A DNA stretch of 64,000 nucleotides, from IMG/VR virus record IMGVR_UViG_3300017917_003053, positions 1 through 64,000 of that record; one strand, given 5' to 3'. Of this stretch, positions 5,310 through 60,022 are shown piece by piece. The stretch's first letter is position 1. The number at the start of each line of letters is the position of its first letter. Position numbers and translations under genes: made by a program. Origin of the DNA: a virus. The notes beneath the pieces are model-generated. The model was not told the DNA's origin, searched no databases, and was given only the letters and a program-made list of their open reading frames with translations.

Positions 5310-5780
5310 ATGGACAATCAACAAGAAAACAAATCTTGGGATACTCTTTATAATGAATATCCCGAAATGTTTAGTAATCGTAACAAGTCTCCGCGAGAAT
5401 CTTGCATGGCTTGGGGATGCGAGATAGGAATGGGTTGGTATGATATTCTGGATGCTATTTGTTGGAAAATTAAACAGCATGAGGAAAATATCGCTTGGGA
5501 TACAGAGTTCAAGCAAAAAAGTAATCCAGATTACAAGAGCGACTATGTTCCTGTCAAGTTTGACCAAATTAAAGAAAAGTTTGGTGGACTTAGGATTTAC
5601 TATTCTGGTGGAGATGATTGTGTTAATGGTATGGTTGCTATGGCTGCGACGATGAGTTATAAGATTTGTGAAAGTTGTGGAGAAAGAGGCGAACCTAATA
5701 AGAATGGATGGATTGTTACTCTTTGCGACAAATGTAGGAACAAAACTTATGACCAAACTCCACTCAATAATGGTGGATGA
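5310..5780 (+). CDS. Zinc-finger phage protein of unknown function
   Basis: A 156-residue protein with a pattern I know from many phages: an N-terminal ESCMAWGCEIGMGWYDIL block, a central QIKEKFGGLRIYY block, and a C-terminal zinc-ribbon-like set of cysteines (CESCG about residue 126 and CDKC near 145). The four cysteines probably bind one zinc. The role is not established in any system I know of. Confidence 0.75.
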   Translation: MDNQQENKSWDTLYNEYPEMFSNRNKSPRESCMAWGCEIGMGWYDILDAICWKIKQHEENIAWDTEFKQKSNPDYKSDYVPVKFDQIKEKFGGLRIYYSGGDDCVNGMVAMAATMSYKICESCGERGEPNKNGWIVTLCDKCRNKTYDQTPLNNGG

Positions 5781-5943
5781 TAAAGTTATTGAAGTCCATT
5801 ACAACAATAGTTTAAAAAACAAACCTTATCTAGTCAGAGTATTTGATTATGATAATTCTTATCCAAATGAATTTAGACTGAACGAAACTGAATTACAGGA
5901 CTTATACAAGATATTAAACTATAATGAGAACTTGGAAAACTAA
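5749..5943 (+). CDS. Hypothetical small protein
   Basis: A 64-residue protein of unknown function with a beta-rich middle (KPYLVRVFDYD). The start is uncertain: ATG 5749 or ATG 5770 both overlap the previous gene and neither has a convincing ribosome site, so reinitiation is likely. Confidence 0.6.
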   Translation: MTKLHSIMVDDKVIEVHYNNSLKNKPYLVRVFDYDNSYPNEFRLNETELQDLYKILNYNENLEN

Positions 5944-6208
5944 AACCATTAAAACGGTTGATGATGTTCATTGTGACGCTTGTGGCAAAAGTACCACAAA
6001 CTATAATGATGTTGGGCCAGACTATGCAACCCTTGAAAGTTGCTGGGGATATGGTTCATCTAATGATGGAAGCAAGTTCAACATTGATCTTTGTGAAAGT
6101 TGCTTCTTTGAAGTATTAACTTTTCTCAAAGAAAAGCGACGAAAAGTATTAGGCCCATTCAAATATCCGTATGACAATGATCCTCTAGATGGCATAGAGT
6201 ATTTGTAA
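5924..6208 (+). CDS. Zinc-binding hypothetical protein
   Basis: A 94-residue protein with two cysteine pairs, CDAC (residues 17-20) and CESC (near residue 60), spaced around a WGYGSSNDG block. This looks like a small treble-clef or ribbon zinc domain that I associate with uncharacterised bacterial and phage proteins. No function assigned. Confidence 0.7.
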   Translation: MRTWKTKTIKTVDDVHCDACGKSTTNYNDVGPDYATLESCWGYGSSNDGSKFNIDLCESCFFEVLTFLKEKRRKVLGPFKYPYDNDPLDGIEYL

Positions 6209-19834: not shown

Positions 19835-19844
19835 ACAAGAACAT

Positions 19845-19918
19845 GGGGCGTTGCCGCCGGTAGTGGCACATACTCTTATAAGGTATTCAAAAGGTAGGTT
19901 CGACTCCTACACGCCCTA
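19845..19918 (+). tRNA. tRNA-Ile(UAU)-like, decoding AUA
   Basis: A 74-base cloverleaf. Acceptor GGGGCGT pairs with ACGCCCT (one G-U), the anticodon stem ATACT/GGTAT encloses loop CTTATAA with anticodon TAT, and the T arm is GTAGG-TTCGACT-CCTAC. The D arm is short (GCC/GGC). AUA is a common codon in this AT-rich genome and rarer in most hosts, so the tRNA likely supports phage translation. A perfect 7-bp hairpin (19923-19943, ATATTAG/CTAATAT) follows and may aid 3' processing. Confidence 0.85.
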
Positions 19919-19982
19919 TTCCATATTAGGTGTATTCTAATATAGCCTTCCAGATATTATCCCACCTAATAGAAAGAAAAAC

Positions 19983-20159: not shown

Positions 20160-20514
20160 GGGTGCGTAAAGGTTTCGACTACATATCGGAGATTATATTA
20201 GCAAGTAGTGGTTGATCGACAGGCCACTTTAAAAGTCGATTAAACGCTTTAACTGGCGAAACTCAGTTAGCACTTGCTGCCTGACAAAAAAGGGCAGTAA
20301 CAGACTGCGATACCGAATGAGGGTAGGGATCAAAAGTCTGTCGTTAAATCCCTCTGCACTTACAATATCCAACGGGTTGTAGGTTAAGAGCAGTTGGTAA
20401 GGCTAGAAAAATCTTGTGTGTTCTATATTCTAGTTTAACTCATGAATACAATAAACTTGTAGAAGATGTTTTTGATGCTATGATAGGACGCGGGTTCGAC
20501 TCCCGCCGCATCCA
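20160..20514 (+). ncRNA. ssrA: Transfer-messenger RNA (tmRNA), tag GETQLALAA
   Basis: A 355-base tmRNA. The ends form an alanine tRNA-like domain: 5' GGGTGCG pairs with 3' CGCATCC, including the G3-U70 pair read by alanyl-tRNA synthetase, and the T arm is GCGGG-TTCGACT-CCCGC. GGTTTCGACT near the 5' end is the usual signature. The tag frame starts after TTTAACT at 20255 and reads G-E-T-Q-L-A-L-A-A-stop (20255-20284), a proteolysis tag ending in ALAA. CCA is not encoded. With SmpB it rescues stalled ribosomes and marks the peptide for degradation. Confidence 0.95.
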
Positions 20515-20556
20515 TTAAAAAGTGTATTTATTAGTATTTACTTACTACTAATAAAT

Positions 20557-26085: not shown

Positions 26086-26158
26086 GGGAGTGTAGTCCAA
26101 AGGCAGAGACAGTGGACTTAAAATCCATACAGTGTGGGTTCGACTCCCACCACTCCTA
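26086..26158 (+). tRNA. tRNA-Leu(UAA)-like with short variable loop
   Basis: A 73-base cloverleaf: acceptor GGGAGTG/CACTCCT (one G-U at the end), D stem GTC/GAC with GG in the loop, anticodon stem GTGGA/TCCAT with loop CTTAAAA (anticodon TAA, codon UUA) and T arm GTGGG-TTCGACT-CCCAC. Discriminator A at 26158, CCA not encoded. Bacterial tRNA-Leu normally has a long variable arm, but here it is only about 5 bases, so charging by host LeuRS is uncertain. UUA is frequent in this genome. Confidence 0.85.
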
Positions 26159-26181
26159 CTAATTTATCTTAATATAAACAA

Positions 26182-38951: not shown

Positions 38952-39040
38952 ATATTGATATCAAGCTTTATTATATCTTTATGGCAATAATACTATTAGG
39001 AATTTTAAATGGACTCGGATGTTTCGGACAAAAAGAATAG
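38948..39040 (+). CDS. Tiny membrane peptide
   Basis: A 30-residue ORF, one predicted transmembrane helix (residues 5-24), with ATGA overlap upstream and a 32-base overlap with the next gene. Accepted on fit alone. Confidence 0.45.
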   Translation: MNIDIKLYYIFMAIILLGILNGLGCFGQKE

Positions 39041-39563
39041 ATTATTAAATCAGAGAGTTTATTTGGCTGGGGCTATGGACAGAGTTGCAGATAGAGGGAA
39101 TGGATGGAGAGATAGTATAACTCCCTTTTTGCATAGCCTGGGCATTATTGTGTTTAATCCCATCAAAAAACCAACAGACATAGGCAAAGAAGATAATGAA
39201 GTTCATAAGCATAAAGTTTACTTAAAAAAAGAACAGAAATATGCAGAGTTATCTTCTTTAATGAAGACTATACGATCTGTTGATTTGAGGCTGGTAGATA
39301 TTAGTGATTTTTTGATAGTGAATCTAGATTTAGATATTCATCCTTGTGGCACTTATGAAGAAATTTTTTGGGCAAATCGACAGAAAAAACCTATAATAAT
39401 CCATATGGTTCAAGGTAAAAATCATGCTCCTGATTGGTTATTTGGAACAATACCTCATGAAATGATTTTTTCATCATGGAATGAAGTTCAAGATTACTTA
39501 ATAAGTATTAACAATTCACCAATAATCAACACTTTTAATAGATGGTATTTTTTTAAATCATGA
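39009..39563 (+). CDS. Nucleoside 2-deoxyribosyltransferase-like protein
   Basis: A 184-residue protein with an NDT-like fold: VYLAGAMDRVADRGNGWRD (the YLAGAM nucleoside loop), FNPIKKP, DISDFLIVNLDLDIHPCGTYEEIFWANRQKKPIIIHM (catalytic Glu in GTYEEI). Enzymes of this family swap bases between deoxyribosides or act on nucleotides. It would serve base salvage for the phage. It overlaps the SET gene by ATGA. Confidence 0.8.
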   Translation: MDSDVSDKKNRLLNQRVYLAGAMDRVADRGNGWRDSITPFLHSLGIIVFNPIKKPTDIGKEDNEVHKHKVYLKKEQKYAELSSLMKTIRSVDLRLVDISDFLIVNLDLDIHPCGTYEEIFWANRQKKPIIIHMVQGKNHAPDWLFGTIPHEMIFSSWNEVQDYLISINNSPIINTFNRWYFFKS

Positions 39564-40042
39564 CAGAAAAAATAATTACATTACACGGTGACACAAAAGT
39601 AACTAAAGAATATGATTTTGTACCTGTTTATAAAATCAAATTTGGACATTCTTCTGTAGGAGGTAGAGGCGTATTTGCCACAGATAATATTGAAGAAGGT
39701 GAATTAATTGAAAGATGTCCCTTAGTACCTTTAGAACATCGTTCCAGATACCAAGCAGATCCATCAATATGGAGATACTGTTATACAAAACCCATGTGCG
39801 ATTGTTCTGAATGTAAAAACCATGGATTTATGTTTTATATGGTTTTAGGACACGGCATGATTTATAATCATCAAGATAATCATAATGCAGATATGAAGTT
39901 TCATCATAAAGATTTATATGTTGATATTATTGCTAATCGTCCAATAGCAAAAGATCAAGAAATTTTTGTTACATATGGCGATAAATACTTCAAGAATAAA
40001 GAAAAAGTTGTTGTAGAAAAAGAAAATATCTCCAATGAATAA
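39560..40042 (+). CDS. SET-domain methyltransferase
   Basis: A 160-residue protein with the SET signature blocks: GRGVFATDNIEEGELIE (residues 35-51), CDCSEC, YNHQDNHNAD (near residues 102-111, the N-H motif that binds SAM and substrate) and TYGDKYF (about 138-144). SET proteins methylate lysines. In phages, candidates are host ribosomal, nucleoid or RNA-polymerase proteins, or own virion proteins; this is inference. SET domains are eukaryote-type and rare in phages, though known. Confidence 0.85.
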   Translation: MTEKIITLHGDTKVTKEYDFVPVYKIKFGHSSVGGRGVFATDNIEEGELIERCPLVPLEHRSRYQADPSIWRYCYTKPMCDCSECKNHGFMFYMVLGHGMIYNHQDNHNADMKFHHKDLYVDIIANRPIAKDQEIFVTYGDKYFKNKEKVVVEKENISNE

Positions 40043-40739
40043 TCTCTCGATAGGAATAACGTTTACAGCGTTTAGAAGATTAGACTATCTGAAACAAACG
40101 GTTGAGGCTTTACACAGAAGTTTTAAATATTGTAATATATATTTACCAATTCTATTTTCTATAGATTATTATGATGATTCCATACTAAACTATGTACAAA
40201 ATATAGATTGGTCAGATATAACCTTATCTGTTAATAATCCCAGTGTTGGTTGTAATAAAAATACAAAACTCGCCATCTCTATGGGCTTAAATGAATATGA
40301 TGCCATTATTCATTTAGAAGATGATACAGTACCATCAAAAGATTGTATTAGGTTTTTTGTTGATAATATACATAGATATTATTCAGACGAAGACATTTTA
40401 TGTGTAGGAGGATACAATAAAACCTTAGAGCCAAATACGACCTTACTTGATCAGGTTACTAAAAACATAGGATTTACATGTTGGGGTTGTGCCTTTTGGA
40501 AACACAAAAGTCAAATTTTATTAGACAATTGGATTCCTGCTATGAATAGAGAAAATAATTCTATGTCATGGGATTCTCATTTAAATGAAAATGTTTTTTT
40601 AGCCAAAAAATTATATCAAATTCGCCCACTGATATCTCGTATACAGAATATTGGGGCAGAAGATGGTACTTGGGTTCCTAATGCGGTATTTCATCAGAAC
40701 AGTCATCATACCCCGTATACTTCGGATGACATATTATGA
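40035..40739 (+). CDS. Glycosyltransferase (GT-A)
   Basis: A 234-residue protein: GITFTAFRRLDYLKQTVEAL, SIDYYDD, the nucleotide and metal region IIHLEDDTVPSKDC (HLEDD in place of DxD) and GGYNKTL, plus TCWGCAFWKHK later. It lacks membrane segments. It resembles GT-A glycosyltransferases such as families 2 or 13. ATGA-type coupling to both neighbours suggests one operon with the cupin and HAD/nucleotidyltransferase genes. Confidence 0.75.
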   Translation: MNNLSIGITFTAFRRLDYLKQTVEALHRSFKYCNIYLPILFSIDYYDDSILNYVQNIDWSDITLSVNNPSVGCNKNTKLAISMGLNEYDAIIHLEDDTVPSKDCIRFFVDNIHRYYSDEDILCVGGYNKTLEPNTTLLDQVTKNIGFTCWGCAFWKHKSQILLDNWIPAMNRENNSMSWDSHLNENVFLAKKLYQIRPLISRIQNIGAEDGTWVPNAVFHQNSHHTPYTSDDIL

Positions 40740-41056
40740 AACTATTTCATCTGAAAAATTTTATAGGCGGTTGGGTTGTTGGTAATTTTGATCCATCAAT
40801 TATTAAAACAGATCAATTTGAAGTTGCTATCAAACATTATAAAGAAGGTCAACTTGAACAGAGACACTTGCATAAACTTGCAGAAGAAATTACTATCATT
40901 GTGAGTGGTAAAGTAAGAATGAACTCTGTTATGTATACTTCTGGAGATATAGTCTTTATAGATAAAGATGAATCAACCGATTTTGAAGTTTTACAAGACA
41001 CAATAACATGTGTAATTAAAATACCGTCCATTTTAAATGATAAATACATAATATGA
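40736..41056 (+). CDS. Cupin-like protein
   Basis: A 106-residue single-domain cupin: HLKNFIGG start, then HYKEGQLEQRHLHKLAEEITIIVSGK (cupin motif 1, with HxH and E), GDIVFIDKDES (motif 2 region). Sugar isomerases and epimerases of nucleotide-sugar pathways often have this fold. Its place between glycosyltransferase and nucleotidyltransferase genes makes a sugar-handling role plausible. Confidence 0.65.
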   Translation: MKLFHLKNFIGGWVVGNFDPSIIKTDQFEVAIKHYKEGQLEQRHLHKLAEEITIIVSGKVRMNSVMYTSGDIVFIDKDESTDFEVLQDTITCVIKIPSILNDKYII

Positions 41057-42420
41057 ATACAAAATTAATTATTTTTGATATGGATGGAGTTTTGGTTGAT
41101 ATTAAAGATATACATTTCCATACGTTGAACGAAGCCTTATTGTCTGTCAATGAAAAATATGTGATTAGTTACGATGAACATCTTTCTACTTTTGATGGAC
41201 TAAAAACCATAGATAAGCTTAAAATTTTGACAGAATCTAAAGGGTTGCCCATAGAATATCACAACCATATTTGGAATATTAAACAGCAAAAAACTATATC
41301 ATATCTCAAAAAATTAGAATGTAATCCTAAGATTTTTGATACATTAAAGAAACTCAAACAACTAGGATTAACAATAGCCGTAGCATCAAATTCTATCAGA
41401 GAAACAGTCAAACATGTTTTAGTATCCACTAAATATATTGAACATATAGATTTTTTCTTATCAAATGAAGATGTGAAAAATGCTAAACCAAACTCTGAGA
41501 TATATTTGCAATGTATGATTAAAGCAGGTGTGTCTCCCAAAGAAACTATTATATTTGAAGATTCTCCTCTTGGTATTAAAGCGGCACAAAACACAGGAGC
41601 AGAAGTAATTATGGTTAAAAATACTAAAGATATTAACGAAAATATTTTTGACAAAATTAATAAAACACATACTCCTCAGAATAATAGCAAGTGGCTCAAT
41701 AAGAAACTAAATATTGTTATACCTATGGCTGGTGCTGGCTCTCGTTTTGAACAGGCTGGGTATACTTTTCCAAAACCATTAATTGATGTTAATGGCGAGC
41801 CTATGATAAAAGTTGTAGTAGATAATCTTAATATTGATGCAACTTATACTTTTATAGTACAAAAATCTCACTATGAGAAGTATAATCTGTATCATATGTT
41901 AAATTTAATAACTCCAAAATGCAATATCATTCCTATTGATGGAATCACAGAGGGTGCGGCATGTACAGTATTGTTGGCCAAAAAGTTTATTGATAATGAT
42001 AATCCTTTGCTGTTAGCAAATTCTGATCAGTTTATAGAATGGAATAGTCATGACTTTATGTACACTGTAGAAAATTCTACAACAGATGGAACTATTTTAA
42101 CATTTAAATCAACTCATCCCAAATGGTCTTTTGCTAAATTAGACAGTAATGGTTTTGTTGCTGAAGTAGCAGAAAAAAAACCAATATCAGATATCGCCAC
42201 TGTAGGTATTTATTATTGGACGAAAGGATCAGATTTTGTGAAGTATGCAGAACAGATGATACAAAACAATATCAGAGTAAACAATGAATTTTATGTTTGT
42301 CCAGTATATAATGAAGCCATAGCAGATGGTAAAAAAATCAGAACATATAATATCAATAATATGTATGGTTTAGGTACTCCAGAAGATTTATCTATATTTT
42401 TAAAATCACATGGTAGATAG
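41053..42420 (+). CDS. HAD phosphatase / sugar nucleotidyltransferase fusion
   Basis: A 455-residue two-domain protein. Residues 1-205 are a HAD phosphatase of the beta-phosphoglucomutase type: DMDGVLVD (nucleophile Asp9), AVASNS, NAKPNSEIY (Lys) and FEDSPLGIKAA. Residues 215-455 are a nucleotide-sugar pyrophosphorylase: IVIPMAGAGSRFEQAGYTFPKPLID (NTP-binding loop) and LLLANSDQFIEW (metal Asp). Such enzymes make XDP-sugars from sugar phosphates. The fusion links dephosphorylation or isomerisation with activation of a sugar. Confidence 0.85.
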   Translation: MNTKLIIFDMDGVLVDIKDIHFHTLNEALLSVNEKYVISYDEHLSTFDGLKTIDKLKILTESKGLPIEYHNHIWNIKQQKTISYLKKLECNPKIFDTLKKLKQLGLTIAVASNSIRETVKHVLVSTKYIEHIDFFLSNEDVKNAKPNSEIYLQCMIKAGVSPKETIIFEDSPLGIKAAQNTGAEVIMVKNTKDINENIFDKINKTHTPQNNSKWLNKKLNIVIPMAGAGSRFEQAGYTFPKPLIDVNGEPMIKVVVDNLNIDATYTFIVQKSHYEKYNLYHMLNLITPKCNIIPIDGITEGAACTVLLAKKFIDNDNPLLLANSDQFIEWNSHDFMYTVENSTTDGTILTFKSTHPKWSFAKLDSNGFVAEVAEKKPISDIATVGIYYWTKGSDFVKYAEQMIQNNIRVNNEFYVCPVYNEAIADGKKIRTYNINNMYGLGTPEDLSIFLKSHGR

Positions 42421-42421
42421 T

Positions 42422-43030
42422 ATGAAAAAAATTATATTTGATGTTGGTGCTAATCATGGAATTGATAGCATACCAAGAGCACAAGAGGATATAGAAAATA
42501 CAATTGTATATGCCTTTGAGCCAACTCCATTTTTGATAGATGTGCTTAAACATAAAGCATCATCTTTATCAAACTATATTATTGTAGAAAAGGCAGTATC
42601 AGATTTTAATGGAACGGCTAAATTCAATGTTGCTGGAAATGATGATTGGGGATGTAGTTCATTACTAGAATTTTCTGAACAATCTTTTGTTCAATGGCCA
42701 GGAAGGACAGACTTTAGTGTTACAGATATTATAGAAGTAGAAGTAATAAGATTAGATAATTTTATTTCTCAACATAATATATCTCAAATAGATTATTTAC
42801 ATATTGATACGCAAGGGTCTGATCTAAAGGTATTGCATGGATTGGGCCAGTATATTGATTTAGTAAAAGAAGGTTTGATGGAAGCCGCATACAAGAAGGA
42901 CATTCTATATAAAAATCAGAATACTGTAGAAGATTCAGTGGAATTTTTAAAACAGCATGGATTCTCTATTACCGCAATTACCTCAAATGATATATTTAAT
43001 AATGAAGCTAATATAAGGTTCGTAAGATGA
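42422..43030 (+). CDS. FkbM-family methyltransferase
   Basis: A 202-residue protein with the FkbM layout: IIFDVGANHGIDS (SAM loop), VYAFEPTPFLIDVL, EKAVSDFNGTAKF, IEVEVIRLDNFI and DYLHIDTQGSDLKVLHG. These methylate hydroxyls of sugars and polyketides. It sits between the HAD/nucleotidyltransferase and glycosyltransferase genes, which fits sugar O-methylation. ATG 42422 follows the previous stop; an in-frame ATG at 42410 is also possible. Confidence 0.85.
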   Translation: MKKIIFDVGANHGIDSIPRAQEDIENTIVYAFEPTPFLIDVLKHKASSLSNYIIVEKAVSDFNGTAKFNVAGNDDWGCSSLLEFSEQSFVQWPGRTDFSVTDIIEVEVIRLDNFISQHNISQIDYLHIDTQGSDLKVLHGLGQYIDLVKEGLMEAAYKKDILYKNQNTVEDSVEFLKQHGFSITAITSNDIFNNEANIRFVR

Positions 43031-43779
43031 GAATTGCTCTTTGTCTGTCTGGTCATTTAAGAACATATAACTCTTCAATGGTTCATCAGTCATTTATAGA
43101 TTTTAAAAATTATTTATCCCGATTTGGCTCTATTGATATTTTTATAGCATCATGGAATCGACAAAATACAAAAAATAGTTGGTCTGCATCTCATAATTTG
43201 AATGATGTAAACACTGCTGATTGTATAGTAGACAGTACTCTGATCCAAAAACACTATGAAACAGAGAATGTTTGGTTGTATAATTATGATTACTATGATG
43301 ACATTAATTATAGTCCTTTAAAATACTACTATTTTACTAATAAAGAATATATTTGGGATAGTAGAGGGATTAATAATGAGATTATACATTCTACGAAAAT
43401 GTTTTACTTGATATATCAATGTAATCTCAAAAAGATGCAATATGAGTATAATAATAAATTTAAATATGATTGTGTTTTTAGAATTAGACCAGATCATGCT
43501 TTTGATATGAGCCAATGCCAACAGATTAATCTAGAGAATATTAAATCTGATAGATTATATATTCCTAAACATAATGATAGATTTGCTTATGGATCATCTG
43601 ATATAATGAACAAATATTCATACTCAATACATCATATGTCTCACTTTTTTCAGCAAGGAATATTTGGAGATCCTGAAACTATACAAAAATCCTGTATAGA
43701 ATCTGTGATTAATCCGGATCATATAGTATACATACCTATGTGCGGAGTGTTGGTATCAGATACAGGATATATAAGATAA
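43027..43779 (+). CDS. Glycosyltransferase-like protein, member 1 of a pair
   Basis: A 250-residue protein with ALCLSGHLRTY at the start and YDCVFRIRPDHAFD in the middle, the position of the donor-site acidic residues. The protein at 43800 has the same layout (ILYSGLP ... ILIRHRLDVTVD), so the two look like a tandem family. They resemble polysaccharide-biosynthesis proteins without assigned activity. ATGA-coupled to the FkbM gene. Confidence 0.6.
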   Translation: MRIALCLSGHLRTYNSSMVHQSFIDFKNYLSRFGSIDIFIASWNRQNTKNSWSASHNLNDVNTADCIVDSTLIQKHYETENVWLYNYDYYDDINYSPLKYYYFTNKEYIWDSRGINNEIIHSTKMFYLIYQCNLKKMQYEYNNKFKYDCVFRIRPDHAFDMSQCQQINLENIKSDRLYIPKHNDRFAYGSSDIMNKYSYSIHHMSHFFQQGIFGDPETIQKSCIESVINPDHIVYIPMCGVLVSDTGYIR

Positions 43780-43799: not shown

Positions 43800-44456
43800 A
43801 TGAAAATAGCCATACTGTATTCTGGATTGCCTATTTGTAATGAATCAATACTTCTGTCTCACAAAAAATATATCTGGGATCTATATGATACCGATTTATA
43901 CTTATCAACATATTCCCAAAGTGCTTTTGACCAAGATATAATTGATCAACTGTGCAATTTTACATCTTTTAAAACGATACACATAGAAAATTTTGATACT
44001 GTCTATGCGAATTGTTTATCTTCCATTGAACAAAATATACACATCAAAAAAGATGAAACAAAAACTATTAACACTCTGTCTATGTTTTATAAAATTAGTA
44101 GTTGTTTTTCTTTAGTCCCTGACTCTTATGATATCTTAATAAGACATAGACTTGATGTAACAGTAGACGAACCTCTTACTTTATACAATAACGACGGGGT
44201 TAATGTACCACGCGGAGGAGATCATCATGGAGGATTGCTTGACTTATTTGCCTTTGGTTCATATACTTCTATGAGCGTATATTGCCGATTGTTCAATCAT
44301 TTGCATCACTATATTCATAATTTGTCTTGCGTTTTTCATCCAGAAAGTTTATTGCGTTTTCACTGTAACTATCACCAATTACCAATTCACAGGTTTAATT
44401 ACAACCTCTATCTTAGAGGACAACTTTTTAATACCACAGCACCATGTGTAGAATAA
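43800..44456 (+). CDS. Glycosyltransferase-like protein, member 2 of a pair
   Basis: A 218-residue protein paralogous in layout to the previous one: IAILYSGLPICNESI, LYLSTYSQ and ILIRHRLDVTVDE (compare FRIRPDHAFD), then GSYTSMSVYCRLF. It has no signal peptide. The 20-base gap before it holds no promoter. Donor and acceptor unknown. Confidence 0.55.
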   Translation: MKIAILYSGLPICNESILLSHKKYIWDLYDTDLYLSTYSQSAFDQDIIDQLCNFTSFKTIHIENFDTVYANCLSSIEQNIHIKKDETKTINTLSMFYKISSCFSLVPDSYDILIRHRLDVTVDEPLTLYNNDGVNVPRGGDHHGGLLDLFAFGSYTSMSVYCRLFNHLHHYIHNLSCVFHPESLLRFHCNYHQLPIHRFNYNLYLRGQLFNTTAPCVE

Positions 44457-44457
44457 T

Positions 44458-45576
44458 ATGCAAAAAATAATTAATGAAATTAAACTAGATTTTGATGACG
44501 TTCTAATACGACCTAAAAGATCAACTCTTAACAGTAGATCAGAGGTTGATTTAACAAGAGAGTTTAAATTCAAATACTCTCCGAGAAAATTATCAGCCGT
44601 ACCAATCATGGTGGCTAATATGGATACTGTTGGAACTTTTGCTATGGCAAAATCATTAGTCAAGCAAAATGCTATCACATGCTTACACAAGCACTATTTA
44701 CCATATGAATATATTGAATTCTATAGTGATCCAAATATTCCTAATAAAGATTTAGTTTTTTATTCGATAGGCACTGGACAAAAAGATCTAGAAAAACTCT
44801 CTTACGTTCACAACCATCTTACAGAAGGTAAGCATTGTCCAGGACCAAATATATGCTTAGATATTGCAAATGGATATACTGAACAATTTGTTAAAACAGC
44901 AGCAAGTATAAGAAAATTATTTCCAGATTCTATATTAATGGCTGGAAATGTTGTTACTCCAGAAATGACAGAGGAATTGATCATTCATGGTAAAGTTGAT
45001 ATAGTCAAGGTTGGTATAGGTTCGGGTAGTGTGTGTACCACTCGTTTAAAAACTGGCGTGGGATACCCTCAATTGAGTGCTGTGATGGAGTGTGCTGATG
45101 CTGCCCACGGTCTTGGTGGACATATTTGTTCTGATGGTGGTTGCAAAGTAGTTGGAGATATTTGCAAAGCATTTGGTGGTAATACAGACTTTGTAATGTT
45201 GGGCAGTATGTTTGCTGGTGCTGATGAGTGCGAAGGAGAATGGAAATATGAATATCGTACCAGTATGGGATTTTGGCAACCTTTAGACCCGGAACACGAA
45301 TTTGAATGTGAGAAAAGAAAAGTATCATTACAATATTATGGTATGAGTAGTGAAAACGCTATGAATAAACACCATAATGGAGTAGCAAGATATAGAACAG
45401 CAGAAGGTAAATGTACAACTGTTTCATATAAAGGAACCGCTGAAAGTATCATTCAAGATATTTATGGCGGTTTAAGAAGCTCATGTACATACATTGGAGC
45501 AACAAAAATCAAAGATTTCGGTAAAAAAACAACATTTATACAAGTCAACAATACCCATAATAAATTATATGAATAA
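44458..45576 (+). CDS. guaC: GMP reductase
   Basis: A 372-residue IMPDH/GMPR-family TIM-barrel enzyme. Typical blocks: KLDFDDVLIRPKRS, PIMVANMDTVGTFAMA, HKHYL, KVGIGSGSVCTTR (catalytic Cys in the GSxCTTR loop), CSDGGCKVVGDICKAFGG, FVMLGSMFAG and QYYGMSSENAM. GuaC converts GMP to IMP with NADPH. In a phage it would recycle host guanine nucleotides to purine pools. Its place within the sugar cluster could instead mean it serves GDP/GMP balance. Length fits GuaC. Confidence 0.9.
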   Translation: MQKIINEIKLDFDDVLIRPKRSTLNSRSEVDLTREFKFKYSPRKLSAVPIMVANMDTVGTFAMAKSLVKQNAITCLHKHYLPYEYIEFYSDPNIPNKDLVFYSIGTGQKDLEKLSYVHNHLTEGKHCPGPNICLDIANGYTEQFVKTAASIRKLFPDSILMAGNVVTPEMTEELIIHGKVDIVKVGIGSGSVCTTRLKTGVGYPQLSAVMECADAAHGLGGHICSDGGCKVVGDICKAFGGNTDFVMLGSMFAGADECEGEWKYEYRTSMGFWQPLDPEHEFECEKRKVSLQYYGMSSENAMNKHHNGVARYRTAEGKCTTVSYKGTAESIIQDIYGGLRSSCTYIGATKIKDFGKKTTFIQVNNTHNKLYE

Positions 45577-46657
45577 ATCTATACTAATTAATAGTCCTAT
45601 CGGATATACTGGTTACGGAGTAGTTGGATGGAATATATGCAAAGAATTATATTCTAGACCAGATGTAGATCTTACTGTGTTTCCTATCACAACTCAAAGA
45701 TTTACAAATATGCCCAAACTAGATAGCGAAGAAGAAGACCAAATACTGTCTAGTATGATGCACAAGAGTTTTGATCCCAAAGGAGCGTGTGTTAGGATTT
45801 GGCATCAATTTGATTTAGCAGAAAGGATCGGCACAGGGAAATATATTGCTTTCCCATTTTTTGAATTAGATACATTTAATCCTAGGGAGTTGTTACACCT
45901 TAAGGTTCCTGATCATTTTGTAGTTGCGTCTAATTGGGCTAAGAATATATTAATTTCTAACAATGTTAATACTCCTATAGACGTTGTACCATTGGGGGTT
46001 AATACAGAAATATTCGATCATAAATTATGCAAAGATAAAAACGATGATGACCCATATATATTTATGGTTGGAGGTAAGTGGGAAATTAGAAAAGCTTATG
46101 ATGTATTATTGGATGTATTTACTAAAGCATTTACTAAAGATGACAATGTTGAATTATGGATAGCAGCATCTTCTGATAAAACATGTTTTTCAGAAAAAGA
46201 ATTGACAGATTGGCATAATTATTATTTAACATCTACTTTAAAAGAAAAAATTACTATTATCCCAAGAGTAAAAACTCAAAAGGATGTTGCTGAGAAAATG
46301 GCAAAAGCAGACTGTGGTATATTTTTATCCAGAGCAGAAGGTTGGAATCTGGAATTGTTAGAGATGATGAGTATGGGTAAACCAATTATCACAACTAATT
46401 ATTCCGCACATACAGAATTTTGCAATAGTCAGAATTCTTCGCTGATAGAAATTACAGAGACAGAACCAGCATTTGACGGAAAATGGTTTTTTGGTAATGG
46501 AAATTGGGCTAAGTTAGGCAAAGATCAAATAGAACAAGCCGTACAGTATATGAGAAGTATGTATAAGGAAAGAAAAAGAACCAATCCAGAAGGTATTAAA
46601 ACTGGTCAAGTGTTCTCTTGGAAGAATTCGGTTGATCAACTCTTAAAGTGTATATAA
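45569..46657 (+). CDS. Glycosyltransferase family 4-like (GT-B)
   Basis: A 362-residue GT-B enzyme. The N-terminal domain begins NSPIGYTGYGVVGWNICKEL, and the C-terminal domain has DVVPLGVNTEIF, FMVGGKWEIRKAYDVLLD, the GT4 core IFLSRAEGWNLELLEMMSMGKPIITT (E-x7-E type donor site). No transmembrane helix. ATG 45569 overlaps the guaC stop; the longer frame from 45494 runs inside guaC. Last gene of the sugar cluster. Confidence 0.85.
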   Translation: MNKSILINSPIGYTGYGVVGWNICKELYSRPDVDLTVFPITTQRFTNMPKLDSEEEDQILSSMMHKSFDPKGACVRIWHQFDLAERIGTGKYIAFPFFELDTFNPRELLHLKVPDHFVVASNWAKNILISNNVNTPIDVVPLGVNTEIFDHKLCKDKNDDDPYIFMVGGKWEIRKAYDVLLDVFTKAFTKDDNVELWIAASSDKTCFSEKELTDWHNYYLTSTLKEKITIIPRVKTQKDVAEKMAKADCGIFLSRAEGWNLELLEMMSMGKPIITTNYSAHTEFCNSQNSSLIEITETEPAFDGKWFFGNGNWAKLGKDQIEQAVQYMRSMYKERKRTNPEGIKTGQVFSWKNSVDQLLKCI

Positions 46658-57826: not shown

Positions 57827-60022
57827 ATGTCGGCACTTCAAGAACTTCAAAATTATACATTTGTTAGTAAATATGCTCGTTGGTTAGAAGATAAAAATCG
57901 CAGAGAAACATGGAAGGAAGCGGTTGATCGTGTGCGTAATATGATGCATACAAAATATGCTGATTTCGGAATTTCCGAAGAAATTGATTGGGCATACGAT
58001 ATAATGTATAAAAAGAAGGTGCTTGGTAGTCAGAGAGCATTACAATTTGGAGGTGAGCCGATTTTAAAACGTCATGCCAAAATTTACAACTGCACAAGTT
58101 CATACTGTGATAGACTTCGTTTCTTTCAAGAATGTTTTTGGTTACTATTGTGTGGTAGTGGCACAGGATTTAGTGTTCAAAAGCACCACGTTGCTAAATT
58201 GCCAACATTAGAACACGAAGTAGATGAAAACGCAGTTGGCGTTAAATATGTAATAGAAGATAGTATCGAAGGATGGGCTGATGCTCTAGGCGTTCTTCTT
58301 AGTAGCTATTTTAGTAAGCCTGTTGAAGAATTTAAAATGTATAAGAATAGTTATGTAGTATTTGACTATTCACAGATTCGTGCCAAAGGTACATCATTAA
58401 GTTCTGGCGTTGGTAAAGCCCCAGGGTTTGAACCACTACAAAATGGTCTAGAAAAAATAAGAGCACTATTAGATCGTTGCATCGCTAATGGACAAAAGAA
58501 ACTTCGTCCTATTGACGCTTACGATATTGTTATGCACAGTAGCGATGCTGTTCTTAGCGGCGGTGTCCGTAGAAGTGCTTCATTAGCATTATTCAGTCCA
58601 GACGATGAAGAAATGGCCAGAGCAAAAACTGGTAATTGGTACATTGAAAATCCACAAAGAGCAAGAAGCAATAACTCAGCCTTACTGCTAAAAGAAGAAA
58701 CCACTTTTGAAGAATTCCAAACACTAATGGAAAGTGTGAAAGAATTCGGAGAGCCAGGATTTATCTGGAGTGAATCTACAGAGATGATTTTTAATCCTTG
58801 CGTAGAAATAGGCATGTGGCCTGTTGACGAAGAAAGCGGAAAGAGTGGATGGCAAGGATGTAATCTTTCTACAATTAATTGTTCAAGTGTAGAAGATGAA
58901 GATGATTTCTTTGAAAGATGTCGTGCTGCTGCTATTATCGGTACATTACAGGCTGGTTTTACCAAGTTAGATTATTTAGGTGAAATTAGTCAAAAGATCT
59001 TTGAAAGAGAAGCCCTATTAGGAGTATCGTTAACTGGTACTATGGAAAAGCATGATCTAGTATTAACAGAAAAAGTACTTACCAAGGGTGCTAAAATTGC
59101 TGTTGAAACTAATAAAGAGATTGCCAAAAAGATCCAGATCAATCAGGCTGCTAGAGTGACTTGCTTAAAGCCAGAGGGTACTAGTAGTAGTATGCTTGGT
59201 ACAAGTTCGGGTATTCACCCGCATCACGCCAAACGATACATACGCCATGTACAGGCCAATGTTTTAGAAGCACCATACCAACACTTTAAGAAATATAACC
59301 CACAGGCTTGTGACAAGTCAGCATGGTCAGCCAACAATACTGATGAGATTATTAAGTTCCCAATAGAAGTACCAGACGGTGCTAAACTTAAGAATCAATT
59401 ACCAGCAGTAGAAATGTTGGCAGTAGTAAAAGAAACCCAAAAGAATTGGGTAAATTCTGGTAAAAATAGAGCATTATGTACTCAAGATTATCTTAGCCAT
59501 AATGTTAGCAATACTGTCACAGTTAAACCTGATGAATGGGATGATGTCACAAAGTATATCTATACTAATAGAAAATATTTTGCTGGTATTAGTCTTATTC
59601 CACAAAGCGGAGACAAAGACTATCCACAAGCACCATTCACCACAGTTTATACTAGTCGTGAAATTGTTAAGGAATACGGAGATGCCGCCTTGTGGTGCTC
59701 TGGATTAATTGAACTAGCATTAAATGCTTTTGATAATAATCTATGGGCTGCTTGTGACTATGTAACATTAAATCAAGCAAATAAAGAAGATCCAGAACCC
59801 AAATTAATATTTGTTACCAAAATGAAAAATTTTGCTGGTAAATATTTTGATGGGGATACCAAAAGGCTAACATACTGTATGAAGGATGTTCATAACTGGA
59901 AGTTATACTGTGATTTATTCGGTAGTTTCAAAAAGGTTGATTATACACAACTATCTGAGACTGAGGACAATACGGTTGGTATAGAGGAAATTAGTTGTGC
60001 TGGTGGCGCTTGTCTAATTTAA
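57827..60022 (+). CDS. nrdJ: Class II (B12-dependent) ribonucleotide reductase
   Basis: A 731-residue enzyme of the adenosylcobalamin-dependent class: YNCTSSYC (N-terminal redox Cys), LSGGVRRSASLALF, NPCVEIG (active-site Cys in the NPCxE block), CLKPEGTSSSMLGTSSGIHPHH (KPEGT loop), and a CAGGAC C-terminal thiol pair. Length and layout match the monomeric Lactobacillus-type enzyme (about 740 residues). It makes deoxynucleotides without oxygen and needs cobalamin from the host. The ATG follows a GGAGA site. Confidence 0.95.
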   Translation: MSALQELQNYTFVSKYARWLEDKNRRETWKEAVDRVRNMMHTKYADFGISEEIDWAYDIMYKKKVLGSQRALQFGGEPILKRHAKIYNCTSSYCDRLRFFQECFWLLLCGSGTGFSVQKHHVAKLPTLEHEVDENAVGVKYVIEDSIEGWADALGVLLSSYFSKPVEEFKMYKNSYVVFDYSQIRAKGTSLSSGVGKAPGFEPLQNGLEKIRALLDRCIANGQKKLRPIDAYDIVMHSSDAVLSGGVRRSASLALFSPDDEEMARAKTGNWYIENPQRARSNNSALLLKEETTFEEFQTLMESVKEFGEPGFIWSESTEMIFNPCVEIGMWPVDEESGKSGWQGCNLSTINCSSVEDEDDFFERCRAAAIIGTLQAGFTKLDYLGEISQKIFEREALLGVSLTGTMEKHDLVLTEKVLTKGAKIAVETNKEIAKKIQINQAARVTCLKPEGTSSSMLGTSSGIHPHHAKRYIRHVQANVLEAPYQHFKKYNPQACDKSAWSANNTDEIIKFPIEVPDGAKLKNQLPAVEMLAVVKETQKNWVNSGKNRALCTQDYLSHNVSNTVTVKPDEWDDVTKYIYTNRKYFAGISLIPQSGDKDYPQAPFTTVYTSREIVKEYGDAALWCSGLIELALNAFDNNLWAACDYVTLNQANKEDPEPKLIFVTKMKNFAGKYFDGDTKRLTYCMKDVHNWKLYCDLFGSFKKVDYTQLSETEDNTVGIEEISCAGGACLI

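Follow-up and report, generated by a model that had tools for sequence, protein, structure and literature searches.

The gene cluster and its two-domain protein

The stretch of DNA analysed here (the window) comprises positions 1 to 64,000 of a virus record of 153,002 bases (IMG/VR IMGVR_UViG_3300017917_003053). It encodes a protein in which a HAD phosphatase-type domain and a sugar nucleotidyltransferase domain (NTP) are joined in one open reading frame (Table 1), as had been stated in the initial annotation. End-to-start overlaps of 4-11 bases join the genes from position 39009 to 43779 and the genes up to 46657 follow close behind, an arrangement as expected for a cluster that is read as one transcript. 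For the terminase, even the best matches, to Bacillus, Clostridioides and Microcystis phage proteins, reach no more than 22-25% identity, too distant to point to a host.

Table 1. Position and assignment of the fusion, its domains, its neighbours and further features of the window
Feature	Position	Strand	Evidence and remarks
tRNA-Ile	19844-19919		near the tmRNA
tmRNA	20160-20517	+	complete; Rfam RF00023, 116.6 bits; tag GETQLALAA
tRNA-Leu	26086-26159		near the tmRNA
SET-domain protein	39560-40042	+	Pfam E 4e-13; 62% identical relative in L090
Glycosyltransferase-like gene	40035-40739	+	weak sub-threshold MGAT2 match (Pfam); overlaps cupin start
Cupin, 106 aa	40736-41056	+	phrog_24762; homologue in the bacterial HAD/NTP cassette; 4-base overlap with the start of the fusion
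HAD-nucleotidyltransferase fusion	41053-42420	+	one uninterrupted ORF, ATG start, 455 aa plus stop
HAD domain, residues 1-205 (about)	41053-41667	+	Pfam HAD_2/Hydrolase; beta-PGM structure alignment; conservation; model
Inter-domain linker, residues 206-216	41668-41700	+	low confidence at 207-210; length and sequence variable
Sugar-1-phosphate nucleotidyltransferase domain, residues 217-455 (about)	41701-42417	+	Pfam NTP_transferase; 4evw by sequence and fold; conservation
FkbM-type methyltransferase	42410-43030	+	overlaps fusion end by 11 bases
DUF7796-like putative glycan gene	43027-43779	+	no own Pfam match; family beside the fusion in 53/80 viral loci
phrog_13607 protein, probable glycan gene	43800-44456	+	no own Pfam match; relatives in 21/80 viral loci
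GMP reductase-like gene	44458-45576	+	within the glycan cluster; 476 bits, NCBIfam equivalog cut-off 397 bits
GT4-type glycosyltransferase	45494-46657	+	above Pfam cut-off; PHROG glycosyltransferase
Ribonucleotide reductase	57827-60022	+	best sequenced relatives Rhizobium phage RHph_I1_18 (47%) and Pseudaeromonas phage KLEP7

The cupin and the FkbM methyltransferase that had been named as neighbours are both present. At least four glycosyltransferase-like genes had also been counted; the GT4-type gene stands, whereas the gene in front of the cupin stays below threshold and the DUF7796-like and phrog_13607 genes lack a Pfam match. The suggestion that the cluster makes a methylated sugar nucleotide is unsupported as it was put; FkbM genes accompany the fusion optionally, in 19 of 80 viral loci.

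Within the fusion, Pfam places HAD_2 at residues 6-188 (E 1.1e-31) and NTP_transferase (PF00483) at residues 225-393 (E 1.6e-9; 38.2 bits against a curated cut-off of 21.2). The profile phrog_3980, of unknown function in PHROG, matches with E 4.8e-78. An AlphaFold2 model computed from 59 aligned relatives consists of two confident domains (mean pLDDT 90.6), and pLDDT falls below 50 only at residues 207-210 between them. The pTM of 0.68 leaves the relative placement of the domains uncertain, and channelling between the two sites is not supported, as the linker is predicted to be flexible. In an alignment of 93 fused proteins, on which all conservation counts are based, this linker is the least conserved part.

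The HAD half belongs to the HAD_2/PGMB-YQAB group: D9 and D11 of the DxDGx(V/T) motif, S/T112 of motif II, K145 and the E169-D170 pair occur in 93/93 proteins, and a C1-type helical cap is visible in the model. Nucleophile D9, acid/base D11, H21, K77, K145, E169 and D170 are invariant in all 93. Its sequence matches in the PDB include the phosphorylated-carbohydrate phosphatase TM_1254 and beta-phosphoglucomutases. No HisB-type (HAD-IIIA) model appears among the best matches shown for this half; a GmhB-type heptose bisphosphate phosphatase fused to a nucleotidyltransferase was considered as well and does not fit the assignment to HAD_2/PGMB-YQAB rather than HAD-IIIA.

The C-terminal half, described before as an NDP-sugar pyrophosphorylase, is of this type by its Pfam match and its RmlA/4evw fold. 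Its site comprises GAGSR (227-231), K241, NSD (323-325) and E374-K375. The GxGxR...K signature and the metal-binding Asp are conserved (G227, G229, R231, K241, D325), with G227, K241, D325, E374 and K375 in 93/93 proteins and R231 in 92/93. The closest solved relative is 4evw of Vibrio cholerae (E 2.1e-20 by sequence), a nucleoside-diphosphate-sugar pyrophosphorylase that, unlike the window protein, is a stand-alone structural-genomics entry with no HAD domain; a fold search returned 4evw (TM 0.80 by target) and RmlA structures. None of the curated equivalog models is reached by either half, and for all listed models of RmlA, GalU, GlmU and similar enzymes the score stays far short of the cut-off (rmlA_long, 47.8 of 320 bits). 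Another fold match of the NTP half is the BFVD entry A0A2H4UUJ1 of Bodo saltans virus, called 'Glycosyltransferase/phospholipase' and, judged by this name, possibly an NTP-GDPD fusion.

Occurrence and origin of the fusion

A search for the same fusion in other genomes was successful in phages, environmental viruses and bacteria. In the phage collection, 11 records match at least 80% of the query, all from Synechococcus phages; nine of them are 56-57% identical to the window protein and the remaining two reach 49% over two joined places, a second HAD gene included. In each of the six phage records inspected the fusion is annotated as one CDS, and the inspected records label it either by one half (glucose-1-phosphate thymidylyltransferase, HAD hydrolase, pyrophosphorylase) or as hypothetical. 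A scan of IMG/VR with the single sequence yielded no relatives, whereas the alignment-based scan did, and a single-ORF fusion was present in all of the best 80 loci. Six bacterial contigs have it in the same form, including the cultured SAR11 genome Pelagibacter HTCC9565, which together with the larger contigs AG-895-O20 and AG-910-L19 provides a longer bacterial context. The bacterial matches L010 and L011 are short MAG contigs and may be of viral origin.

About 30 further bacterial loci encode HAD and NTP in separate neighbouring genes, in examples with polysaccharide exporters and WavE nearby. In quick trees of both domains, computed without bootstrap, 34 of 35 fused proteins (29 viral and five bacterial) are placed together on the same side of a branch whose SH-aLRT support is 97.8 in the HAD tree and 85 in the NTP tree. 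The outlier L015 may join this group without being rejected (p-AU 0.80, NTP tree). Because the fused proteins group in both trees and the inclusion of L015 is not rejected, a single origin of the fusion is likely, although not proven. In the trees, the window protein pairs with that of the 186.8-kb IMG/VR record L090.

The NTP family is also found in other combinations. It is joined to a C-terminal RpiB/LacAB isomerase in SynMITS9220M01, L237 and L241, and to a C-terminal HAD of another type in L204, L225 and L239. Tandem NTP domains occur in Azospirillum, and the divergent relative NTP-a (see below) carries a SnoaL-like domain in Grimontia. Such repeated joining to sugar-phosphate enzymes supports a putative role of the family in sugar-phosphate activation. 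In the case of SynMITS9220M01_192 (L006, 6007-7164), the NTP-isomerase protein is labelled 'phosphatase' in its record.

The bacterial cassette and its GDPD-like partner

Besides the HAD, the set usually seen in bacteria comprises a GDPD-like protein (~210 aa), a 106-aa cupin and two nucleotidyltransferases, of which one is a divergent relative (NTP-a) and the other is closer to the NTP of the window (NTP-b). Two NTP-a sequences were inspected directly, and both deviate from the GxGxR signature. On the P. aeruginosa plasmid NZ_CP017294 the annotations run phosphodiesterase, HAD family phosphatase, 'glycosyltransferase family 2' and cupin; the third of these (L170, 8642-9376) takes the NTP-a position and is probably misannotated. 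For the Citrobacter cassette, no DNA match was found in E. coli genomes, and thus no known K-antigen structure is tied to the cassette.

The GDPD-like phosphodiesterase, which had not been mentioned before, is the most constant partner of the fusion. As a control for this association, 80 bacterial loci from one search were divided into 38 with an NTP relative and 42 with only a generic, unrelated HAD: a GDPD-like gene accompanies 37 of the former and none of the latter. It lies nearby in 65 of the best 80 viral fusion loci in IMG/VR. In the reverse search, the best 80 loci of the viral form (mini-GDPD) included 46 with the full fusion and 26 more with an NTP relative. Among 50,697 phage records the mini-GDPD is present in 16, and all 16 have an NTP relative. 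As related phages are not independent, we give the association without a probability.

The mini-GDPD is a protein of 150 aa from the same neighbourhood as the fusion, with the motifs HR, ExD, GHD and HxK. It is located in L090 at 5547-5999 and in 59 other viral loci, and most sequenced phages have it annotated as hypothetical. In profile comparisons it matches solved GDPDs with E 5.7e-4 and the bacterial GDPD-like family with an hhalign probability of 97%. The model (pLDDT 96.8) matches solved GDPDs in part (best E 8.7e-3, TM 0.43), and because so confident a model covers them only partly, the mini-GDPD is probably a reduced form. The name 'GDPD-like' is accordingly a putative one, taken mainly from motifs and profile matches.

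No GDPD-like gene was found among the ORFs of the window or by a profile search of the 153-kb record; as a positive control, the profile recovered the gene in four other genomes or records. Lacking this partner, the window phage may follow another route than its relatives.

Proposed role and alternative readings

On balance we think that the protein is probably a two-step enzyme of a glycan-building cluster. The HAD domain would remove (or move) a phosphate group of a phosphorylated sugar or polyol. The nucleotidyltransferase would then couple the phosphate ester so formed with an NTP, and the neighbouring glycosyltransferases would use the product as a nucleotide-activated donor. It is the gene neighbours that point to a host-surface or phage-directed polysaccharide as the most likely target. 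The fusion would have arisen from two neighbouring genes of bacterial capsule/LPS-type loci, where HAD and nucleotidyltransferase(s) share a cassette with a GDPD-like phosphodiesterase and a cupin. That a fusion would couple phosphate handling with sugar activation had already been suggested, and the two active sites kept in 93 proteins, together with the separate neighbouring genes elsewhere, support this view. A comparable succession of phosphatase and nucleotidyltransferase for a surface glycan is known from heptose activation, where GmhB acts together with HldE or HddC. The window protein differs from it in that its HAD belongs to the HAD_2/PGMB-YQAB group and is fused to the NTP, and the window shows neither a heptose isomerase nor a heptose kinase next to the fusion.

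The HAD half may instead be a true phosphomutase that interconverts sugar-6- (or 5-) phosphate and sugar-1-phosphate, which would lead straight from a central sugar phosphate to the NDP-sugar. PGMB-YQAB-SF is the best subfamily model, bPGM is among the top models, and the hinge histidine and cap lysine of beta-phosphoglucomutase (H20 and K76 in the L. lactis enzyme) correspond to the invariant H21 and K77. The earlier label 'beta-phosphoglucomutase-type' therefore holds at the subfamily level. It does not hold beyond, as the HAD half scores 78.5 of the 189.4 bits required by the bPGM equivalog model and the column of R49 is occupied by T52, invariant in every fused and separate cassette HAD aligned. 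In beta-phosphoglucomutase, R49 binds the second phosphate, and its replacement by threonine favours phosphatase over mutase activity. We thus regard a mutase as rather unlikely.

Still less probable is that the HAD half is a pyrophosphatase which, by destroying the PPi from the nucleotidyltransferase reaction, would pull sugar activation forward. An inorganic pyrophosphatase does belong to this HAD group, and both the NCBIfam model InDiPhoBT2121 (E 1e-20) and PDB 3qu2 with its relatives match the sequence. However, the score of 74.2 bits is far from the equivalog cut-off of 245, sugar phosphatases score equally well, and a separate bacterial HAD gene with dedicated neighbours suggests a specific substrate.

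An equally improbable reading concerns the destination: the activated sugar could be meant for the phage's own DNA, as has been put forward for the arabinosylated or pentosylated cytosine of T4-like phages. Nucleotidyltransferase genes of T4-like phages are used or proposed for this purpose (TH1_063, TH1_060, RB69 ORF052/053c; PMC12838424), and a fold search links the NTP half distantly to RB69ORF053c. TH1_063 of Shewanella phage Thanatos, a UDP-xylose pyrophosphorylase, is likewise a phage-encoded sugar nucleotidyltransferase; it is described for DNA modification with no HAD fusion reported, and the likeness is one of description, with RB69, which has the related system, not being a sequence relative. 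Against this reading, RB69 is not recovered at E 1e-3, SAR11 and other bacterial contigs have the fusion too, separate homologues lie in capsule/LPS-type loci, and FkbM and GT4 genes are among the neighbours.

We consider it very improbable that the HAD half is catalytically dead and only a platform for oligomerisation. The precedent is vertebrate CMP-sialic acid synthetase, whose HAD module was reported as a non-catalytic platform with no detectable phosphatase activity (PMC8636478), and the HAD half is more variable than the NTP half (64% vs 82% mean column identity). The vertebrate enzyme belongs to a glycan donor pathway, as is proposed for the window protein, and likewise unites a HAD phosphatase-like module with a nucleotidyltransferase on a single chain, but its order is the opposite (NTP N-domain, HAD C-domain) and the families differ on both sides. 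In contrast to its inactive HAD, the catalytic HAD residues are kept in 93/93 fused proteins here, which a pure scaffold would not need. Finally, a frameshift or misassembly, for which a site at residues 205-215 and separate genes in all relatives had been envisaged, can practically be dismissed: the halves are indeed separate genes in most other bacteria found, but the same single ORF was recovered independently in 93 proteins, including those of sequenced phages and of a cultured SAR11 genome.

Returning to the two-step enzyme, a wider and more tentative reading, which we would stop short of calling probable, is that GDPD-like phosphodiesterase, HAD, NTP and cupin form the core of an undescribed activation pathway for a new activated unit. 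It would be common to phages and to capsule/LPS-type loci of many bacterial phyla, and compressed in phages by the fusion and by the 150-residue mini-phosphodiesterase. For cyanophage clusters with epimerases, kinases, nucleotidyltransferases, cupins and glycosyltransferases, a role in changing the surface of the host was proposed (Iyer et al. 2021, PMC7824862); in the parts of that study considered here, the nucleotidyltransferases are of the HIGH superfamily, and neither a HAD-NTP fusion nor a GDPD partner is mentioned. Neither domain family is new, and CMP-sialic acid synthetase (PMC8636478) is an earlier example of a HAD-nucleotidyltransferase fusion. In the open-access literature we found no description of a fusion in this arrangement or of a GDPD/HAD/NTP/cupin cassette.

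Annotations that cover only one half, or that read hypothetical or glycosyltransferase, keep the pathway hidden in databases. The fusion makes the question of the substrate directly testable, since two linked steps are expected of one protein. A conserved two-domain protein with a constant partner gene would point to a specific building block of surface sugars that is carried by phages.
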